Origin: Thermosediminibacter oceani DSM 16646
Lineage (GTDB): Bacteria > Bacillota > Thermosediminibacteria > Thermosediminibacterales > Thermosediminibacteraceae
Assembly: GCF_000144645.1 (NCBI RefSeq)
Contig: NC_014377.1
Coordinates: forward strand, 1,364,001-1,428,000
Direction of reading: 5' to 3'
Length of the DNA: 64,000 nt
Shown here: positions 31,567-41,451 of the stretch, one piece after another
How the letters are laid out: every line of letters starts with the position of its first letter
Position numbering within the stretch: position 1 is the first letter of the stretch
Program-made: the position numbers and the translations under genes
The notes under the pieces: generated by a model
Seen by the model: only the letters and a program-made list of their open reading frames with translations
What the model was told of the DNA's origin: nothing
The model's database searches: none

Positions 31567-31671
31567 GGGGCAACTCCTTCCCTCAGATTTTAATACTAAG
31601 CAGTTTTTTTATACTATACCTCGAAAATTAAAAAATATCAATATTGATTTCAATCACATCATTGATTTCAA

Positions 31672-33054
31672 TCACATCTTGTGAATCGGCGTTCCCAAAA
31701 GGTCCATAGCAGCTTCCATAATGGTCTCGGACAGGGTCGGATGGGCATGAATGGTATCCGCCAGCTCTTGTGCGGTGCATTCAAGTCTTATAGCCAGCGC
31801 AGCTTCAGCGATTAACTCGGTGGCTCCCGGCCCTATAATGTGGACCCCCAGTATCTCGTTCCACCTGGAATCGGCGACAATTTTAACGAACCCGAGGCTT
31901 TCTCCCAATGTCAAAGCCCTTCCGCTGGCAACAAACGGAAACCTGCCTACCCTGATGTCATCCCCGTAAATTTCCCTTGCCTCCGACTCCGTCAGCCCTA
32001 CATAGGCTATTTCGGGGTTTGTAAAAATACAGCTGGGTACTGCTCTGTAGTCCATTCTTTTATTTTCACCGAGGGCGTTGGAAGCTGCTACGATACCCTG
32101 ATGAGCCGCCACATGAGCCAGCTGAAATTTCCCCGTAATATCCCCAACGGCATACACATTTTTCAGGCTGGTCCTCATAAAATCATCTACAATGACCCCG
32201 CTTTTGTCTAGGTCTATATTCAAATCCTCAAAAGCTTCCAGGTCCGGTTTCCTTCCGACGGCAACCAGCACCTTTTCCACTGCAATGGAACGGGGCCCGT
32301 CAGGCGTAATTATGTTCACTTTTAAAAGGTCTTTTTCCTTTTCGACGGACTCCACGCGGGTTCCGGTGAGGACCTTTATCCCTTTGCTTTGCAAAACCTT
32401 TTTGATTTCGGAGGAAATTTCTTCGTCTGCCCGGGGCAGTATCCGCGGAAGGAGTTCCACGACGGTTACGTTGGAACCAATGGAACCGTATATGCACGCC
32501 ATTTCGACGCCTATTACTCCCCCGCCGATTACGAGCATTGAATCGGGTATTTTGCTTAAGGCGAGGGCTTCTTCACTGGTGATAACACCCGGAAGGTCGT
32601 GCCCTGGAAAAGGAATAACAGCCGGTTTTGAACCGGTAGCCAGGATTATGTTTTCCGCCGTTATCACCTGTTGACCTCCGGAGTAATATATTCTTATTCT
32701 CCTCTCATCTTCTAGCTTCGCCTCGCCTCTGAAAACCGATACGCCGTTGGCTTTTAACAGGTTTTCAACGCCCTTGCCGAGGGTTCTTACTATAGAGTCT
32801 TTTTGGCCCTGGGCAAGCTGCCAGTCAATCTTAACGTTTTCGGCCAGAATACCGAAATTCTTAGCATTTCCCAGACTTTGATAAATTTGGGCGCAGTGGC
32901 TTAGAGCTTTGGTGGGTATGCAACCTCGGTTAAGACAGGTCCCACCCAGGTCCCTTTTCTCTACAAGCCCCACTCTTGCCCCTTTTTTAGCAGCGTATAT
33001 AGCAGACACATAACCCCCGGGGCCTCCCCCAATGACAACAATATCGTAGTGCAC
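31672..33054 (-). CDS. lpdA: Dihydrolipoamide dehydrogenase (E3)
   Basis: 460 aa: FAD motif VIGGGPGGYVSAIYAAKKGA, redox-active pair GGTCLNRGCIPTKAL, NAD-binding VIGGGVIGVEMACIYGSIG, and the C-terminal HAHPTLSE with the catalytic His-Glu dyad. It reoxidises dihydrolipoyl-E2 and reduces NAD+. GTG start. It closes the four-gene dehydrogenase operon. Confidence 0.96.
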   Translation of the reverse strand: MHYDIVVIGGGPGGYVSAIYAAKKGARVGLVEKRDLGGTCLNRGCIPTKALSHCAQIYQSLGNAKNFGILAENVKIDWQLAQGQKDSIVRTLGKGVENLLKANGVSVFRGEAKLEDERRIRIYYSGGQQVITAENIILATGSKPAVIPFPGHDLPGVITSEEALALSKIPDSMLVIGGGVIGVEMACIYGSIGSNVTVVELLPRILPRADEEISSEIKKVLQSKGIKVLTGTRVESVEKEKDLLKVNIITPDGPRSIAVEKVLVAVGRKPDLEAFEDLNIDLDKSGVIVDDFMRTSLKNVYAVGDITGKFQLAHVAAHQGIVAASNALGENKRMDYRAVPSCIFTNPEIAYVGLTESEAREIYGDDIRVGRFPFVASGRALTLGESLGFVKIVADSRWNEILGVHIIGPGATELIAEAALAIRLECTAQELADTIHAHPTLSETIMEAAMDLLGTPIHKM

Positions 33055-33083: not shown

Positions 33084-34382
33084 TTATAGTAACATTTCAA
33101 CAGGGTCCTCCAGCAGTTGTTTTATCCTGCGCAGGAATTTAGCCCCCAGGGCACCGTCTATCACCCTGTGGTCGCAGGACAGGGTTAGCTTCATCATGGG
33201 CCTCACGACTATTTCGTCTTCTACTACCACAGGCTTTTTCACGATCTTGCCTACTGCCAAAATTGCACTTTCCGGTGCATTTATTATAGCTGAAAATTCT
33301 TCTATATCGAACATTCCGAGATTTGAGATGGTGAAAGTTCCATCGAGGTAATCATCGGGCATCAGCTTGCCTTCTCTGGCTTTCTTTATTAATTCCGCCG
33401 TCTCTTTGGATATCTGAACAAGACCCTTTTTATCGGCATCCCTTATCACAGGGACTATCAGCCCATCATCCAGGGCCACCGCCAATCCGATATTTATGCG
33501 GTTTTTTACGACAATTCCCTCTTCCCCCGCGCTGCTGTTTACCAGAGGATGCTCCACTAAAGCCCTGGCGGCCGCCTTTATGAGAATGTCGTTTATCGAT
33601 AATTTCACACCGTTTAGTTCCTGAATCTTCGGCGCAAGTTTTTCCCGGAGTTCCAGAGCCTTACCCATGTCAACTTCCAGTGTGAGGTAAAAGTGAGGAA
33701 CTTGTGCCTTGGTCTTTACCATTTTGTCGGAAATTATCTTTCTCATTCCGGCCCAGGGAATTACTCTGTATTCTTCCCGCGGTTCAACCGAAGCCAGCTT
33801 CAGGGCTTCCAAAACGTCCTGCTTTGTGATTCTCTCGCCTTCCAGCTTGCCGATTCGGGACAGGTCTACTCCCTTTTCTTCTGCAATTTTTCTGGCTACT
33901 GGTGTTGCCTTAACCTTCCTGGATTCTATATATTCTAGTACATCCCTTTCAACTACGCGGCCATCCGGCCCGGTGGGGGTTACCGATTTCAAATCTATGC
34001 CGTATTCTCTAGCTACCCTTTTTGCCGCTGGAGATGCTTTTACTTTTTCGCTGGGTGGCGGTGCGGGTGCCGGGCGTTCAGGTTCCACACCAGCTTGTTT
34101 TACCTCAACCCCTGTGTTCTTCCCTATTTCCGGAAGGGGCTCGGTTTCTGCGCCGATTATCGCTATTTCTTGACCCACAGCCACTACCGACCCTTCCGGG
34201 GCCAAGATCTTCCTTAAAATCCCCGAGGCCGGCGCCTCTTCCTCCAGGTTCACCTTGTCGGTCTGTATTTCCAGCAGGGGTTCACCCTGCTTTACCTCTT
34301 CCCCCTCTTTTTTCAGCCATTTTACTATCGTACCTTCCGTCATTGTAAGACCCAGTTTGGGCATTCTTACTATCTCAGCCAT
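33084..34382 (-). CDS. Dihydrolipoamide acyltransferase (E2) with two peripheral-subunit-binding domains
   Basis: 432 aa. A single lipoyl domain (1-80) has the lipoylated Lys in EIQTDKVNLEEEA. A Pro/Ala linker leads to two tandem subunit-binding domains (about 118-155, SPAAKRVAREYGIDL..., and about 160-195, TPVARKIAEEKGVDL...). The catalytic domain (about 205-432) ends with the active-site LSCDHRVIDGALGAKF. In acetoin dehydrogenase it takes the acetyl group from E1 to CoA. Two PSBDs are less usual than one and could bind E1 and E3 separately (inference). Confidence 0.93.
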   Translation of the reverse strand: MAEIVRMPKLGLTMTEGTIVKWLKKEGEEVKQGEPLLEIQTDKVNLEEEAPASGILRKILAPEGSVVAVGQEIAIIGAETEPLPEIGKNTGVEVKQAGVEPERPAPAPPPSEKVKASPAAKRVAREYGIDLKSVTPTGPDGRVVERDVLEYIESRKVKATPVARKIAEEKGVDLSRIGKLEGERITKQDVLEALKLASVEPREEYRVIPWAGMRKIISDKMVKTKAQVPHFYLTLEVDMGKALELREKLAPKIQELNGVKLSINDILIKAAARALVEHPLVNSSAGEEGIVVKNRINIGLAVALDDGLIVPVIRDADKKGLVQISKETAELIKKAREGKLMPDDYLDGTFTISNLGMFDIEEFSAIINAPESAILAVGKIVKKPVVVEDEIVVRPMMKLTLSCDHRVIDGALGAKFLRRIKQLLEDPVEMLL

Positions 34383-34402
34383 TTTATCACTCCTTGATCG
34401 AA

Positions 34403-35380
34403 TTATCTCAACAATTCTCTAACTGCTTCAACAATGTTTTCCACCTGAGGAACAGCATGTCTTTCCAGATTTGGGTTATAGGGTATTGGAATATCAAGTC
34501 CCGCCAGTCTCTTGACCGGTGCATCCAGGTAATCGAAAGCCTCGCTTCCCGCTATGCCTGCCGCTACTTCTGCACCCCAACCGAAGCTCATGGGGTCATC
34601 CTCCACTATCAAAACCCTGCCGGTCTTTTTGACCGAATCGATTATAGTGCGCATATCCAGGGGTTTTAATGTTCTGGGATCTATAACCTCCACGTCTATT
34701 CCTTCCTTTTCCAGCTCCTTAGCCGCCTCGAGGGCTCTAATAACCATTATGGAACCGGCAACTATAGTGATGTCCCGCCCTTTTCGCTTTACATCAGCTT
34801 TACCGAGGGGCAGTACATAATCTTCATCGGGTACCTCGCCCTTTACCCTGTATAGCAATTTGTGCTCGGCAAATACCACGGGGTTGTCATCCCTTATTGC
34901 GGCCTTAATGAGCCCTTTTACGTCGTAGGGTGTGGAAGGTATAACCACTTTCAAACCCGGGAAATGGGCGAACACACCCGGAAAACTCTGGGAGTGCTGA
35001 GCGGCCGCACCGGTACCGCTGCCCATCGGAGCACGTACCACCATCGGCACTTTAGCCTTGCCGCCGAACATATACCGAATTTTAGCACCCTGGTTGATCA
35101 GCTGATCCATGGCAAGGGTTAAAAAGTCGAAAAACATGATTTCAGCAATAGGCCTCATGCCGGATAAGGCTGCCCCAACCGCCATACCGACGATCGCCTG
35201 CTCCGATATGGGTGTATCTATAACTCGTTCTTCACCGAATTCGTCTATCAGCCCCCTGGTAACCCCGAAGGCTCCACCGTAGATACCTATATCTTCTCCG
35301 AGCAGGAATACGCTCTCGTCCCTCTGCATCTCTTCCCTTAAGCCTTCCCGCAGGGCGTCTATATAAAGTTTTTCAGCCAT
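34403..35380 (-). CDS. acoB: Acetoin dehydrogenase-type E1 beta subunit
   Basis: 325 aa, transketolase-like pyrimidine and C-terminal domains: [62 protein letters not shown] and [15 protein letters not shown]. It pairs with the alpha subunit to bind TPP. The ATG at 35380 follows GGGAGGAG. Acetoin versus 2-oxo-acid specificity rests on similarity to AcoB and on operon layout, not on a decisive residue. Confidence 0.9.
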
Positions 35381-35409
35381 TACATGTCTCCTCCCTTTCT
35401 CCATAAAAT

Positions 35410-36369
35410 TCATGCGTATACTCCGTCGGCAATATCTTCTAAAGAAGGTTCCGGGCTGTTCTTGGCGTATTCTATCGCGTCCTGAATCTCCCTTTCCACT
35501 TCTTTTTCTATTCTATCGAGTTCTTCTTCGGTGGCTATTTTTTCCTCCACCAGTTTTAGCCTGTAACGTTTGATGGGGCATTTTTGCTTCCACTCTTCTA
35601 TTTCCTCTTTTGTCCTGTAAACATTGGCATCGCTCTTGGAATGTCCTAGCCACCGGTAAGTTTTGGCTTCTATAAGAGAAGGCCCTTCGCCCCTTCTGGC
35701 CCTTTCCACCGCCTTTTTTACCACGTGGTAGACCGCTTCCACGTCGTTGCCGTCAACAATTTCCCCGGGCATGTCGTACGCTGCCGCCCGGTCGGCAACA
35801 TTTTTTACCGCGGTAGACCTGCTGAAAGCTACGGACATGCCGTAAAGATTGTTCTCGCATAAATACACCACAGGAAGTCTCCACAGGGAGGCTATATTTA
35901 AAGACTCATGGAAAACTCCCTGGTTGTTGGCCCCATCGCCAAAAAAGCACAGTGTAACTTTGCCGTCTTTTTTCATCTTGGATGCCAGCGCCGCACCCGT
36001 CGCTATGGGTACCCCACCTCCAACTATACCGTTAGCCCCAAGATTGCCGGTCTCGATATCGGCTATATGCATGGAACCGCCTCTGCCCCTGCAGTATCCG
36101 GTTTCTCTTCCCAGGAGCTCGGCAAACATCTGGGGGAGCCTGCCTCCTTTCGCGATGCAGTGACCGTGACCCCTATGGGTACTGGTAATCATATCGTCAG
36201 CTTCCAGCGCTGCAATCGCTCCCACAGCAGTAGCTTCTTCACCAACAGAAAGATGGCATGTACCCCAGATCATATTGGCCTTGAACAGCCTGTCGACTTC
36301 CAGCTCAAAACGCCTTATCTCGTACATTTTCCTGTACATCCATAGCCTCTTTTCTTTTGTTAAATCCAT
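35410..36369 (-). CDS. acoA: Acetoin dehydrogenase-type E1 alpha subunit
   Basis: 319 aa, TPP-binding: [51 protein letters not shown] and the TPP motif [15 protein letters not shown]...NNLYGMSV. It cleaves acetoin (or decarboxylates a 2-oxo acid) and starts the cycle finished by E2 and E3. The ATG at 36369 is seven bases after GAGGTGG. First gene of the complex, preceded by its own AT-rich promoter region (TATAAT at 36446-36451). Confidence 0.9.
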
Positions 36370-36502
36370 CACATTACCACCTCTCGTTTATTTTAATAAT
36401 TCCGTTTAGCAGGTAACCGGGTTCTGTATTTACAAATGTTATATGATTATATCATATGCTTATATTATGCAATTTTTATGCCGCCTCTTTTGGGGATAAT
36501 AT

Positions 36503-36543: not shown

Positions 36544-37842
36544 TCAGCCTATCAACTTTTCCTGCATTCTCCGCAGCTGTAAAATGAGTGAATTTTCATC
36601 TAGCTTCACCGCGTCGTAGGTTATTACCTCGCCCTTTTTCACATCCTTCGTCATAACTACATTATTATTTACAAGCCCTATGGGCAGGGCGTTCTCTCTT
36701 TTAGCATTTTCATAGGTATCTATTACGCCGTAAACCGTAAAACCACCTATACCATCAAGATGTTCCCCAGCTTTCAAATCTTTCTTTGCTACCGCTATAG
36801 TCTCGGACACCGGAGCACCCTTTGGAGCTATAGTTGGCTCTCCGTAAATGTACGCCCTAGCTGCGGAAAGGGGCGTCTCTATGCTCGTCAGGTGGTAGGG
36901 ACGGTAAAATACGTAGTTGGGGCCTTCGCCCATGGAAAGATAGGCCATTTCTTCCCGGACGGCTTCCAGCTTAGTGGTAACTATCACGAAAACGCCGGGC
37001 GCAACACCGTTTACGTATTCCACGACCTGGTATCTGTCCAGAATTCCTCCTTCTTCTTTAAGTCTGAAGATCTCTGGTAATTCTTTCACGGTGGCTTTCG
37101 GGCCGATTAACCCCCGCCTGGTGGGAAGGAAACCGGTGGCGTTGGACACGGCGGTAAGCTCCACCATAGTCTTGGTGCCGTCTTTGAAAGACGCCAGCAT
37201 TTTCGGATTCATATTCTTTTTCATGGCTTCTTCCATTACAGAGTCGGGATTGGCTTCCAGATCCAGGGGATTGTTTTTTCCCTTACCGGCAACTAATATC
37301 TCAAACCCCATTGCATCGGCAAAATCGTAAAGTTCCTTTATTGCCCCGGGTTCATCGCCGGCAGAAACAGTGTATACCACTCCCGCACTATCTGCCATCT
37401 TCTTTAATATCGGTCCAACCGTTACGTCGGTTTCCACGTTTAACATGACAATATGCTTGCCGTTGTATATCGAATCGAGAGCGATATGGGCACCGGCCTC
37501 CGGCACTCCCGTGGCATCAATCACCACATCGATGGGTATAGCTTTCGTTATTGCGCCAAAATCTTCGGTTACTGCGTATTTACCCCGTCCCAGAGCTTCT
37601 TCCACCTCCGAGGGGGTTTTGGCCGTAAGGATGTCGTCGGGGGCTACGCCGGCCAGGGTATATGCTCTCCTGGCTTCCTCTAGCTTTCTGTCACAGATTG
37701 CCGCCACCCTGATACCTTTCATACAAAATATCTGGCTTACCATTCCACGGCCCATCTGACCGGCACCTATTAAGCCTACGTTGATTTTTTTCCCGCTAGC
37801 ATCTAATTCCCTCAGCTTTGAATTCAAATTAAGCATAGCCAT
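36544..37842 (-). CDS. NAD(P)-binding oxidoreductase with C-terminal SAF domain
   Basis: 432 aa. The N-terminal Rossmann fold (about 20-160, VGLIGAGQMGRGMVSQIF) is of the homoserine-dehydrogenase/Gfo-like type, followed by a catalytic middle part (VSAGDEPGAIKELYDFADAM, GKGKNNPLDL). A C-terminal SAF domain (about 350-430, VAKKDLKAGEHLDGIGG and NVVMTKDVKKGEV) closes it. Such proteins occur with sugar-alcohol gene clusters, but the reaction is not settled to my knowledge. As the last gene of a glucitol-PTS operon without a recognisable sorbitol-6-phosphate dehydrogenase, it is a good candidate for oxidising the imported polyol phosphate (inference). Confidence 0.82.
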   Translation of the reverse strand: MAMLNLNSKLRELDASGKKINVGLIGAGQMGRGMVSQIFCMKGIRVAAICDRKLEEARRAYTLAGVAPDDILTAKTPSEVEEALGRGKYAVTEDFGAITKAIPIDVVIDATGVPEAGAHIALDSIYNGKHIVMLNVETDVTVGPILKKMADSAGVVYTVSAGDEPGAIKELYDFADAMGFEILVAGKGKNNPLDLEANPDSVMEEAMKKNMNPKMLASFKDGTKTMVELTAVSNATGFLPTRRGLIGPKATVKELPEIFRLKEEGGILDRYQVVEYVNGVAPGVFVIVTTKLEAVREEMAYLSMGEGPNYVFYRPYHLTSIETPLSAARAYIYGEPTIAPKGAPVSETIAVAKKDLKAGEHLDGIGGFTVYGVIDTYENAKRENALPIGLVNNNVVMTKDVKKGEVITYDAVKLDENSLILQLRRMQEKLIG

Positions 37843-37899: not shown

Positions 37900-38262
37900 T
37901 CAATAACCTTGTATCAATATTTCCTCTCCCACTTTGGGCATAGGTATCTGTTTTTCCTCCAGGTGGATATTCCCCGGCAGTTCCGGAGTCGTCTTGCCGT
38001 CGAATTTGAGGCAGACGTGACCGATTTTTGCCAAATTTTTATTGGCTACATCACCGACGGCCGTCACTTTGAAACTTACCCGCCCAAGATAAAGTACGTC
38101 GCCGGGCACCACATCTTCCATCAGTTTCCTGCCCCTGTGAACCACCGATATTTCCCGCAATTCCTGCGGGGCGCTCTCGTCAAATAATATGATCATCTTC
38201 TGCTCTATGAATTCTTCTACCATATCCCCTATTGCAGTGACCACCGCTTCGAATTTTTTCAT
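37900..38262 (-). CDS. srlB: PTS glucitol/sorbitol-type EIIA
   Basis: 120 aa, the whole EIIA-gut fold: YEAVVTAIG-type N-terminus (KKFEAVVTAIGDMV), ELREISVVHRG with the phospho-acceptor His region, and YLGRVSFKVTAVGDVANKNL. It receives phosphate from HPr and passes it to the IIB domain of SrlE. Two adjacent ATG codons (38265, 38262) follow AAGGAAGG; the second has better spacing. Confidence 0.93.
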   Translation of the reverse strand: MKKFEAVVTAIGDMVEEFIEQKMIILFDESAPQELREISVVHRGRKLMEDVVPGDVLYLGRVSFKVTAVGDVANKNLAKIGHVCLKFDGKTTPELPGNIHLEEKQIPMPKVGEEILIQGY

Positions 38263-38289
38263 CATTATCCTTCCTTTCTGACAGAGACT

Positions 38290-38309
38290 ATGGCGCCTGA
38301 AGGCGCCAT
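38290..38309. other. Perfect hairpin in the srlE-srlB gap
   Basis: ATGGCGCC-TGAA-GGCGCCAT, an 8-bp perfect stem with a 4-base loop and no U-run, between two operon genes. It could be an mRNA processing or stabilising element, setting different EIIA and EIIBC levels. Confidence 0.6.
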
Positions 38310-38326
38310 TTTGCATAAACTATTAA

Positions 38327-39322
38327 TTATACGTAAAGTCCGAAACTAAAGAGGTATGCTATTAAGACCGCTATGGGACCTGTAATCAGCCGGGAAATCA
38401 GGATGGCGCCTACGCCTATCTCAACTGTCTCGGGTTCTGCCTCCCCAAGGCTCAGGCCTACGGGTATGAAATCGCATCCTACCTGAGGATTGATGGCAAA
38501 TAGCGCCGGAAGCGCGTACTGAGGAGGTACATTGCCCTTTCCAATTTCCACACCCACCAGCACGCCGACAACTTGAGCTATTACGGCACCCGGCCCCAGC
38601 AGAGGTGAAAGCACAGGTAGAGCACATATAACCGAAATGATGAGAAGCCCTGGCAGGGTACCGGCCATCGGAGAGATTACGTTGGCTATCCAGTTTCCTA
38701 CCCCCGACTTCAGGATTATTCCGATCAGGGTAGCCACAAAAGCCATAAAGGGGAGAATGTTCTTGATTATCTGCTCTATGGTCTCGCGGCCGGCCTGATA
38801 CATGACGCCTACAACTCCGCCCATTCCCCGGCCTATTTTTTCAATGAAGCCAATTTGCCTACTGTTGCTGCTGGTTTTCTGGGGTTTTTCTGCACCGGCT
38901 CCGGTAGATTCAGGTGCGGTTTCACGGCGGGGCACATAACCCGTCGCTTCATCGGAAACCGTGGTTATATTTTCCACCTTAACCCCGGAGACGTATATAT
39001 CTGCTGAAATATACTGCGCCAGGGGACCTGCCTGTCCCACCGGGGTGAGGTTTATAGTGGGAATCCGTTTTTTGGGATAAACGCCGCATCGGGCGGTACC
39101 GCCGCAGTCGATGACCACGCAGCAGATCTGCTGTTCGGGTACCGAAGATTTGAAGCCGTCCACCGCCACGCCGCCGGTAAGCTCCGCAATTTTTCGCGTT
39201 ACCGGATCGATACCACCCCCGGTTATGGATACAATCTTGTCCCGGCCTTCTTCGGGCTTTATTATCAAAGGCCCGCCCCATCCCCCGGGGCCCTTTTCAA
39301 CTTTTACAGCCCTATAACTCAT
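38327..39322 (-). CDS. srlE: PTS glucitol/sorbitol-type EIIBC
   Basis: 331 aa. The N-terminal IIB domain (about 1-130) has GGWGGPLII and the cysteine-containing QICCVVIDCGGTARCGVYP. A Ser/Thr linker (about 131-160) leads to the C-terminal IIC half with four to five membrane helices (LPFMAFVATLIGIILKSG, LLIISVICALPVLSPLLGPG). With SrlA it forms the membrane permease and phosphorylates the polyol on entry. Confidence 0.95.
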   Translation of the reverse strand: MSYRAVKVEKGPGGWGGPLIIKPEEGRDKIVSITGGGIDPVTRKIAELTGGVAVDGFKSSVPEQQICCVVIDCGGTARCGVYPKKRIPTINLTPVGQAGPLAQYISADIYVSGVKVENITTVSDEATGYVPRRETAPESTGAGAEKPQKTSSNSRQIGFIEKIGRGMGGVVGVMYQAGRETIEQIIKNILPFMAFVATLIGIILKSGVGNWIANVISPMAGTLPGLLIISVICALPVLSPLLGPGAVIAQVVGVLVGVEIGKGNVPPQYALPALFAINPQVGCDFIPVGLSLGEAEPETVEIGVGAILISRLITGPIAVLIAYLFSFGLYV

Positions 39323-39334
39323 TCCACAGCCCTC

Positions 39335-39859
39335 CTATGCACGCTCTCTCTGTCGCATCATCCTGACGGTCAGCCTCTCCGTCACTAAGCCGCGTATAAA
39401 GATCACTATGACACCAACTAGAAAGTATCTGACGGCCAGCTCCCCAAGTGGTAATCCGAGTTGCTGAATTCCCTGGGCAATGCCCATGTATACGAAAAGC
39501 TCCGCCGGATTGGCGTGAGGGAAAAGACCGGTAATAGGGTGAACGAAGGAAACCGCCGCATCGTAAAAGGCAGGTTTGTATTTTTCCGGGAGAAATCTCC
39601 CGAAGGTATAAGCCATGGGATTGGTGAGGAAGAACACGGCCATTACCGGCATTACAGTATATCTGAGCAGGGTGTATTTCCCTGCAGCCTGAGCAAGACG
39701 GTTTATCCTCTCCTGGCCTACGAGTTTAATAAAAGCATTTACGGCGGTCATCAAAGTAATCAGCGTGGGTAAAATGCCGCCGGCAAGGCTTAAAAACACC
39801 TTACCGCCTTCCTGGAAAAGACCTATAAAACTCTGGGCAAAGTTGGCCAAAACGTCCAC
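39335..39859 (-). CDS. srlA: PTS glucitol/sorbitol-type EIIC
   Basis: 174 aa, hydrophobic, with VNAFIKLVGQERINRLAQ and TNPMAYTFGRFLPEKYKPAFYD typical of SrlA. GTG start after GGAGGTGAATATTTC. It carries the other half of the permease and the substrate site. Confidence 0.94.
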   Translation of the reverse strand: MDVLANFAQSFIGLFQEGGKVFLSLAGGILPTLITLMTAVNAFIKLVGQERINRLAQAAGKYTLLRYTVMPVMAVFFLTNPMAYTFGRFLPEKYKPAFYDAAVSFVHPITGLFPHANPAELFVYMGIAQGIQQLGLPLGELAVRYFLVGVIVIFIRGLVTERLTVRMMRQRERA

Positions 39860-39919: not shown

Positions 39920-40285
39920 TCATAGATTTTTCTCTTGCAGCATTTTGACTGCATTTTCAACGGCTTTTTTGAAACCCTCATCCTTGTCATTCAGCACGTA
40001 AGGCACTTCCTGTAAATACAGGCCTTTCATTTCCTTAATTTCTTTAAACCTTGCGAAGACAGTCATCCCGCTCATCCTGTAAGCCTCAAGGATCTTTCCT
40101 GTTTTGTCGGCTGCAATCAGCACGATGTTCCCGGGTGTCATCTTACCTTTAGCACTGCCGATTCCTACCCGGCCAACTTTTTTTAGTTGTTTTATTTTCT
40201 CCTGCAGGTTTTTAATCTGAAAATAGGTAAAAATTCCCTGTAGTATCCACATTAATCCTATTATTCCCAATATCTTAACCCACAT
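39920..40285 (-). CDS. gutM: GutM-like glucitol operon activator
   Basis: 121 aa. An N-terminal membrane anchor (about 5-22, ILGIIGLMWILQGIFTYF) is followed by a soluble domain with KKVGRVGIGSAKGKMTPGN, the GutM core. GutM co-activates the glucitol operon in enterobacteria. ATG at 40285 has AGAGG six bases upstream; an earlier ATG at 40303 lacks a ribosome site. First gene of the operon after its promoter. Confidence 0.88.
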   Translation of the reverse strand: MWVKILGIIGLMWILQGIFTYFQIKNLQEKIKQLKKVGRVGIGSAKGKMTPGNIVLIAADKTGKILEAYRMSGMTVFARFKEIKEMKGLYLQEVPYVLNDKDEGFKKAVENAVKMLQEKNL

Positions 40286-40335
40286 ACACAACCTCTTAAT
40301 CATTTGTTCAATATTTTATCATATGTTCTTAATTT

Positions 40336-40364
40336 AAGATAGCATAAATAAATTTTAATGTCAA
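40336..40364 (-). promoter_or_regulatory. Sigma-A promoter of the glucitol operon
   Basis: TTGACA (40359-40364) and TATCTT (40336-40341) with a 17-bp spacer, just downstream of the palindromic operator at 40369-40384. Confidence 0.75.
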
Positions 40365-40368
40365 TAAT

Positions 40369-40384
40369 TGTGATAATTGTCACA
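40369..40384. promoter_or_regulatory. Perfect TGTGA-N6-TCACA palindrome upstream of gutM
   Basis: TGTGATAATTGTCACA, centred about 48 bp before the predicted transcription start. It matches the Crp consensus half sites exactly and lies where class II-like activators bind. The protein that reads it, a Crp/Fnr relative or the SorC-type regulator, cannot be told from sequence. Confidence 0.65.
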
Positions 40385-40398
40385 TATCTTAAAGCATA

Positions 40399-40430
40399 TA
40401 AAAAAAAGACTCTAAATTTGAGTCTTTTTT
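40399..40430 (-). terminator. Terminator of the SorC-family regulator gene
   Basis: AAAAAAGACTCAAATTTAGAGTCTTTTTTT on the minus strand: stem AAAAGACTC/GAGTCTTTT with long U-run, overlapping the stop codon. Confidence 0.85.
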
Positions 40431-41368
40431 GAATTCACCATTAAAAACTGCCCGGTTTTTTCGTCGGTAATGAGAACATCCAGATAATGACCCCTTAAAG
40501 CTGCAAGAATTGCTTTACGTTTTTCATGACCTCCCGCAACCCCGATCACAAGGGGAATCTCTTTCAATTTTTTCAGAGATATGGCTATTACCCTCTCGTT
40601 TAATTCCGGACAGCACGGATTCCCATGTTCGTCTATAAAGCGCGAGCATAGGTCACAACAGACACCGGACCTTTTTAGATCTTCGAGCTCTCTTTCCGAA
40701 AAGTAACCCGTTTCCAGCATGGTGGACTCGGCGCCAAAAGGAGACCCTATCCCAATCAGTGCTATATCGACCCGTTCGGCCATTTCCAGAACCTGCCTTA
40801 TATTGCTGTCGGAAAGAAGGGTGTTTTTAACTTCCACACTATCTACCAATGCTGGGGCGTGAAGGAGTTGCCAGCGGCCGCTAAAACATCGGGCTAAATT
40901 CATCACTATTTGGTTAGAATGAAGGTCGATTCTGGTCTGGCCTACCCCTCCGACCAGGGGAATAAAAGTGGCATCCAGCTCGGGGGCGTTTTTGATATAT
41001 TCGGGCACATAAGCCAGCGTAGTCCCCCACGAAACACCTACAAGACTTTTATCCTTTAGAGTCCTAACCAGAAAGCCAGCCGCCGCTTCTGCCAGGTATC
41101 TTTTAAGTCCCTCTCCTTCATCGTAAGGGGTTATAATTACCTCCTTTAAATTAAAACATTTCTCGAGGGTATCCTCAAGCTTGGCGAAACTCCCTTCGTA
41201 ATTTATCTTTATCTCAACTATTCCCTCTTCCCGAGCCTTTTGCAATAACCTTGAAACCGAGGGTCTTGATATACCGAGCTTGTCGGCTATCTCTTGCTGG
41301 GTTTTATTCTCATCGTAGTACATATGAGCTATTTTGATCAAAAGCCTTCTATCTTTCGTGACGTTCAA
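40412..41368 (-). CDS. SorC/DeoR-family sugar-binding transcriptional regulator
   Basis: 318 aa. The N-terminal helix-turn-helix (about 10-55, NKTQQEIADKLGISRPSVSRLLQKA) precedes a sugar-phosphate-binding domain (about 60-315) with GVSWGTTLAYV, FIPLVGGVGQTRIDLHSNQI, and IALIGIGSPFGAESTM; IPLVIGVAGGHEKRKAILAAL ends it. It probably senses the phosphorylated polyol and controls the adjacent glucitol operon, whose promoter lies right downstream. TTG at 41368 after AGAGGGTG is preferred over a GTG embedded in that ribosome site. Confidence 0.9.
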   Translation of the reverse strand: MNVTKDRRLLIKIAHMYYDENKTQQEIADKLGISRPSVSRLLQKAREEGIVEIKINYEGSFAKLEDTLEKCFNLKEVIITPYDEGEGLKRYLAEAAAGFLVRTLKDKSLVGVSWGTTLAYVPEYIKNAPELDATFIPLVGGVGQTRIDLHSNQIVMNLARCFSGRWQLLHAPALVDSVEVKNTLLSDSNIRQVLEMAERVDIALIGIGSPFGAESTMLETGYFSERELEDLKRSGVCCDLCSRFIDEHGNPCCPELNERVIAISLKKLKEIPLVIGVAGGHEKRKAILAALRGHYLDVLITDEKTGQFLMVNSKKTQI

Positions 41369-41421
41369 AAAAGTCACCCTCTTTTAATCGATTGTTTACA
41401 TCTTAAGAATATGTGCAATTT

Positions 41422-41451
41422 ATTATAACCACTTTTATTTTGGTATGTCAA
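41422..41451 (-). promoter_or_regulatory. Sigma-A promoter of the SorC-family regulator
   Basis: TTGACA (41446-41451) and TATAAT (41422-41427), 18-bp spacer. Confidence 0.8.

Follow-up and report, generated by a model that had tools for sequence, protein, structure and literature searches.

A conserved palindrome at the glucitol promoter of Thermosediminibacter oceani is a candidate Rex operator layered on probable SorC-family sugar control

The 16-base palindrome next to the glucitol (gut) promoter in a 64,000-nucleotide stretch of the chromosome of Thermosediminibacter oceani, a heat-loving anaerobe (the window is this stretch; positions are numbered from its first base) is a real and conserved element, beyond what chance would produce. 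With moderate confidence, and from comparison of sequences across genomes, we take it to be a candidate operator of the redox repressor Rex (Rex1), layered on sugar control by the SorC-family protein GutR. A Rex operator over SorC control would be the most economical account of the site; reading by a Crp/Fnr protein is possible and second best, and in this species alone the Crp/Fnr protein, judged by its predicted specificity, fits the site even better than Rex. The palindrome, TGTGATAATTGTCACA, occupies positions 40369-40384 and is an exact TGTGA-N6-TCACA that stands 4 bases upstream of the -35 of a minus-strand promoter. Read on the minus strand, the order is TGTGACAATTATCACA-ATTA-TTGACA-17-TATCTT-N7-GAACATATG-N10-GAACAAATG, then gutM, and if +1 is taken by inference to lie 7 bases past the -10, the dyad centre falls at ~-47.5. 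The first-pass annotation, whose span of 40336-40384 takes in promoter and palindrome together, had described a perfect TGTGA-N6-TCACA just upstream of TTGACA/TATCTT and centred near -48, equal to the Crp consensus and adjoining a regulator of the SorC family. We find the same: the core is exact and is the sole exact match in the window, and the gene at 40412-41377 matches PF04198 (E 2e-67). The features of the locus, all on the minus strand, are as follows.

41389..41451, minus strand: promoter of gutR itself, TTGACA at 41446-41451 and TATAAT at 41422-41427, with a SorC-like repeat at 41389-41417 and no TGTGA palindrome
40412..41377, minus strand: gutR, SorC/DeoR-type regulator of 321 aa (PF04198 as above; NCBIfam DeoR model E 1.8e-78, under the model cut-off)
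40400..40430, minus strand: terminator-like hairpin and T-run, overlapping the gutR 3' end, between gutR and the gut promoter (hairpin by eye)
40368..40385, minus strand: candidate redox-regulator operator around the core 16-mer, position-locked in relatives and the best window match on both the Rex and the Crp matrix
40359..40364, minus strand: -35 hexamer TTGACA of the gut promoter (from the sequence and relatives' promoters)
40336..40341, minus strand: -10 hexamer TATCTT, after a 17-base spacer (from the sequence)
40301..40328, minus strand: probable GutR (SorC/DeoR-type) operator, GAACATATG-N10-GAACAAATG, at ~+1 to +28; the only match in the window, 0 expected
39920..40303, minus strand: gutM (PF06923, E 7e-35), its start more likely the ATG at 40285
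39335..39859, minus strand: srlA, glucitol PTS IIC (NF049923 above cut-off; PF03608)
38327..39322, minus strand: srlE, glucitol PTS IIBC (PF03612, PF07663)
37900..38316, minus strand: srlB, glucitol PTS IIA (PF03829)
36544..37842, minus strand: NAD-binding oxidoreductase with SAF domain (DRL_cat; PF21135, E 1.5e-69)
33084..36372, minus strand: downstream genes for E1 alpha, E1 beta and E2 of a pyruvate/acetoin dehydrogenase-type complex (TIGR03182 above cut-off for 35410-36372; the rest judged from translations)

The DRL_cat oxidoreductase is a conserved gene of the operon, matched in all five named relatives compared. The named relatives of this locus are Bacillota, the nearest being Thermosediminibacter litoriperuensis (SorC protein 94% identical). 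Two other candidate controls were discarded. For CcpA/cre control the window contained one match, at 38466 within srlE, no more than chance would give, and the start of acoA has a Rex-like site (36357, 11.5 bits) that is not kept in L014 or L015. We also note that ATTGATTTCAATCACA occurs twice with an 18-base period at 31643-31676, around the 3' terminus of the gene for dihydrolipoamide dehydrogenase.

Against the single exact TGTGA-N6-TCACA in the window, shuffled sequence gave a mean of 0.03; with two mismatches allowed there were 19 window matches and 17.0 by chance, a chance-level count that leaves only the exact match informative. The whole genome (2,280,035 bases) holds 5 exact copies, as against 0 for the backwards control. 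To follow the site through relatives we used a GutM search of 26 genomes, 4 of them (2 with gutM) added by a class-wide extension; it gave 20 matches, including weaker ones below the cut-off of the extension. Before counting we set aside G003, because a contig end truncates its sorC, and the loci L045, L046 and L047, where no neighbouring gene matched SorC; the promoters of L017/G002 and of L018/G008 are identical and were each counted once. In the remaining sample of 16 gut promoters with SorC, the palindrome (8, 9 or 10 of its 10 defined bases) is present in 11 (G000, which is T. oceani, G020, G015, G014, G018, G016, G001, G002, G008, G009 and G005), always starting 20 bases upstream of the -35; the gut promoters of G011, G012, G013, G022 and G024 have none. 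The -35 of the site-bearing promoters is TTGACA in 11/11, counting the TTAACA form of G005. Over these 11 promoters the offset of -20 from the -35 gives a mean of 9.18/10 motif matches, compared with 2.87 over offsets -45 to -1 (positions were scored by script in 15 promoters, G012 being judged from its promoter sequence). The promoters fall into two families: in f1 terminator-like sequence and then the gut promoter separate sorC from gutM, and in f2 the gut promoter lies ahead of a sorC-gutM operon. The flanks of the palindrome are unconserved in both, and finding one element at an unchanged distance from the -35 in both layouts argues for function. The annotation had named a lack of conservation in relatives, together with a failure of either protein to bind, as the finding that would count against the site; its position is kept (11/16), its exact letters less so, an exact TGTGA-N6-TCACA being found in 3 of the 11 gut sites. 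The idea that the palindrome is a chance occurrence or a feature of the promoter itself could draw on the low number of exact genomic copies, one of which falls within a coding region, yet a position locked across two families and two operon layouts, at 0.03 exact matches expected per window, makes it extremely unlikely.

Which protein reads the site is a separate matter. The annotation had proposed a Crp/Fnr relative or an unusual SorC operator; the second proposal gives way to a separate and better candidate operator of SorC type 3' of the -10, and the first stands only as a possibility (one such protein, with a Crp-type helix), the cross-genome comparison favouring Rex. Directly 3' of the -10, a GAAC-type repeat such as TGAACCAATGATTA...TGAACAAATGTTCA is present in 15/16 gut promoters (by eye). 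The exception, G012 (L044), has a SorC protein 42% identical and a repeat of GCAC rather than GAAC type, possibly a case of regulator and operator changing together. According to PMC11229326 the half-operator of Bacillus subtilis DeoR is TTGAACA, and half-sites of this type are absent from the palindrome and present in the separate repeat. Since a separate SorC-type repeat is present, the palindrome is not needed to explain SorC control. That it is nonetheless an unusual operator of GutR fits with its always accompanying this SorC protein at gut promoters, and with a B. subtilis DeoR operator that reaches a comparable upstream span, -60 to -21 (PMC11229326). We hold this to be very improbable, however, as 4 of the 15 promoters with the GAAC-type repeat are without the palindrome, the f1 promoter of gutR carries a SorC-like repeat without the palindrome, and the palindrome also stands ahead of the V-ATPase operon.

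A single clear Crp/Fnr protein is encoded in the genome (2250933-2251640), the remaining PF13545 matches scoring lower and the second match being the SorC protein. The recognition helix of the Crp/Fnr protein, TSRETVTR, is of the R-E...R type of Crp and, by eye, the protein is without the Arg-Ser that we take to belong to the cAMP pocket, unlike enterobacterial Crp. An orthologue (61-100% identity) is found in 13/22 genomes and tracks exact TGTGA-N6-TCACA sites ahead of hcp, which are present in 11/12 genomes with both orthologue and hcp (in G019 there was no exact site within the hcp stretch searched) and in 0/6 hcp genomes without the orthologue. The site in T. oceani is:

G000:C1:1641949-1641964 (L003:1501-1516): hcp site of this genome, exact TGTGA-N6-TCACA (relatives: L098-L115)

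Between each hcp site and a -10-like hexamer there are 21 bases (22 in G003), so that the sites are centred at -41.5 in 10 of 11 and at -42.5 in one, and no -35 was seen by eye in these 11 promoters; -41.5 is the class II position. An exact site also precedes a ferredoxin-like gene in this genome, and a similar ferredoxin likewise in G001. Because these sites fit the core regulon of HcpR, given as hcp and frdX in PMC1274295 and PMC12915319, it is very probable that the resident protein is HcpR-like and activates hcp, and the hcp sites that track it make a clean class II regulon prediction. Ahead of hcp in genomes without the Crp-type protein, the patterns tried gave no HcpR2-type sites (GTAAC-N4-GTTAC and similar). 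A stop-containing fragment in G010 (L097, G010:C221:982-1203) has a helix like that of the orthologue (VGTSRETVTRML) and is a decayed copy; G010 is without hcp or gutM matches.

Binding of this HcpR-like and probably not cAMP-binding protein to the gut site is possible, though on balance unlikely. A helix R and E correlate with G3 and A6 of TGTGA under the R180/E181 rule of PMC1274295, by which the protein would read TGTGA; it is the one clear candidate in the genome, its orthologue tracks the exact hcp sites, and the matrix derived from hcp sites gives the window site 19.2 bits. A precedent for this ambiguity comes from Staphylococcus aureus: PMC2883068 describes both Rex and ArcR, a Crp/Fnr protein, as candidates for such sites. 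The geometry differs, however: the gap to the -10 is 21-22 bases at hcp and 27-28 at gut, the gut sites being centred at ~-47.5/-48.5 before a consensus -35. In the eight site-bearing genomes with the orthologue, moreover, 1/8 gut sites is exact as against 11/11 hcp sites (Fisher p 1.6e-4, genomes not independent). Finally, G008, G009 and G005 keep the gut site and no orthologue was found in these genomes (99%, 68% and 82% complete, respectively), in which the Crp/Fnr helices are SRPSLSR, TTRSINR or QRTSLSR and not R-E...R.

Rex, by contrast with the Crp/Fnr orthologue in 13 of them, is encoded in 22/22 genomes of the order, Rex1 in 21 and only a Rex2-like copy in G010. The 24-residue Rex1 helix is identical in 21/21 copies and retains R, K and R at the DNA-contacting positions of Thermotoga maritima Rex described in PMC8836258 (RK is conserved with the 7wb3 sequence). 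TTGTTAA-type palindromes, which agree with the clostridial Rex consensus as given in PMC8457756 and PMC5886521, are present at 19/21 rex promoters. In the rex promoters (L133-L153) we also observed a second, TTGTGAYNNNTTTCWCTT-like element ~20 (f1) or ~40 (f2) bases 3' of the TTGTTAA palindrome, a spacing of whole helical turns; the main palindrome is degraded in the rex promoter of G000.

The gut sites resemble these operators. The 18-bp inverted repeat with TTGTGA/TTGTTA halves and an A/T-rich centre is seen in ATGTGACAATTATCACAA of the window and in relatives (e.g. TTGTTAAAATAATCACAA), and one half-site is TTGTTA in 4/11 (G014, G015, G018 and G005). We trained Rex and Crp matrices without gut or V-ATPase sites. 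On the Rex matrix 10/11 gut sites reach at least 11 bits (G001, 7.6), and on the Crp matrix the 11 range from 3.3 to 20.8 bits; gut sites outscore hcp/frdX-type sites on the Rex matrix (Mann-Whitney p 3e-4, a rough value because training sites were picked by eye). The window site itself scores higher as a Crp site than as a Rex site (13.9 bits on the Rex matrix), and so do those of G008 and G009. Of the bases preferred by Rex in the order, A at position 7 and T at position 12, the window site has neither (C and A), and in many gut sites the first and last spacer bases are C/T and A/G. In S. aureus, mismatches at position 7 are common among confirmed Rex sites (PMC2883068), and we therefore regard the preference as neither absolute nor strictly defining. 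Rex footprints reported for Streptomyces avermitilis hold TTGTGATACGGTTCACGA and TTGTGACCTGCTTCACAT (PMC5355995), and one half of the T. maritima Rex operator is TTGAGA (PMC8836258), as in the G020 gut site. Identity to that operator is 13-15/18 for gut sites (window 14, G020 15) and 11-13 for hcp-type sites, and hardly separates the two. Rex is also encoded in G011, G012 and G013, whose gut promoters are without the site, and the Rex matrix found no site above 8.3 bits in the neighbourhood of the window's lactate dehydrogenase gene.

The V-ATPase operon carries the same palindrome in 5/5 genomes scanned for exact sites, with or without a Crp-type protein (L019:1501, L120, L122, L125 and L131). 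In G001, G008 and G009 it abuts TATAAT, which is a repressor's place, and in S. avermitilis Rex is described as controlling an ATPase operon (PMC5355995). The V-ATPase operon is a candidate for Rex control as well.

It is also conceivable, though we rate it as rather unlikely, that the gut site is read by Rex2 or by another factor with a TGTGA-type site. Two Rex copies are encoded in 11/11 site-bearing genomes, the second paralogue being found in most genomes. The Rex2 helix is RQDL...GQQGYGY in 9/9 read (L154-L162), with RQ and QQ replacing the RK and TR contacts (Gln for Lys and Arg), and its specificity may accordingly differ from TTGTTAA; as a class, moreover, the gut and V-ATPase sites fall between the two matrices, Rex and Crp. 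Against this, no conserved palindrome was seen upstream of rex2 in the 9 loci read. We favour Rex1 because the gut site is kept where no Crp-type protein is found, and because of its TTGTTA halves, the matrix scores, the invariant Rex1 helix and the V-ATPase sites.

If Rex1 reads the site, two controls would act on one strong sigma-A-type promoter. GutR would bind its repeat over the start site and block transcription until glucitol phosphate is present, and Rex would sit on the 18-mer beside the -35 when NAD+ is plentiful and depart as NADH rises, tying use of the reduced sugar to redox state. We infer the inducer of GutR, the binding of Rex1 at the gut site and its action there as a repressor, although it may instead be an activator. 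That a pathway yielding NADH should be repressed when NADH is low is physiologically odd, and the reason for it is not obvious; activation by Rex at gut would make better sense and may be suggested by position. More speculative, and decidedly improbable in our view, is a shared input at one 16-mer in this species, in which drifted ancestral Rex letters became readable by both Rex and the HcpR-like Crp/Fnr protein, and Rex, at its rigid distance from the -35, may stimulate reduced-sugar uptake and so provide negative feedback on NADH. The open-licence literature searched yielded no paper describing a glucitol operon under Rex control. Were the Rex reading true, a sugar-alcohol uptake operon would join the Rex regulon, with redox state gating the use of a reduced sugar; and TGTGA-N6-TCACA in Bacillota would be no evidence for Crp.

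The enterobacterial srl/gut operon has a CRP site and GutM. The operon described here shares with it the glucitol PTS genes, gutM and a TGTGA palindrome, but its regulator is of the SorC family and its host is a firmicute. Operators of the SorC/DeoR type (B. subtilis DeoR, ATTGAACAAAATTTCAAT...) resemble the GAACAWATG repeat of this promoter and are unlike the TGTGA palindrome. HcpR/Crp sites, wTGTGAnnnnnnTCACAw, have a core that is exact in the window, and a protein with the R-E...R helix is encoded and has the same core at its hcp site; they differ in lying at ~-41.5 at hcp, as opposed to ~-47.5 at gut, and the gut site is kept where the protein was not found. Operators of Gram-positive Rex (ROP, TTGTGAANNNNTTCACAA / TTGTTAANNNNTTAACAA) differ from the gut site in that the target here is a glucitol PTS, the spacer edges are often C/T and A/G, and the site is just upstream of the -35; they share with it the 18-bp A/T-rich palindrome, the TTGTGA/TTGTTA halves with a 6-base gap and the placement at or next to a promoter, and a Rex with conserved DNA contacts is encoded here.
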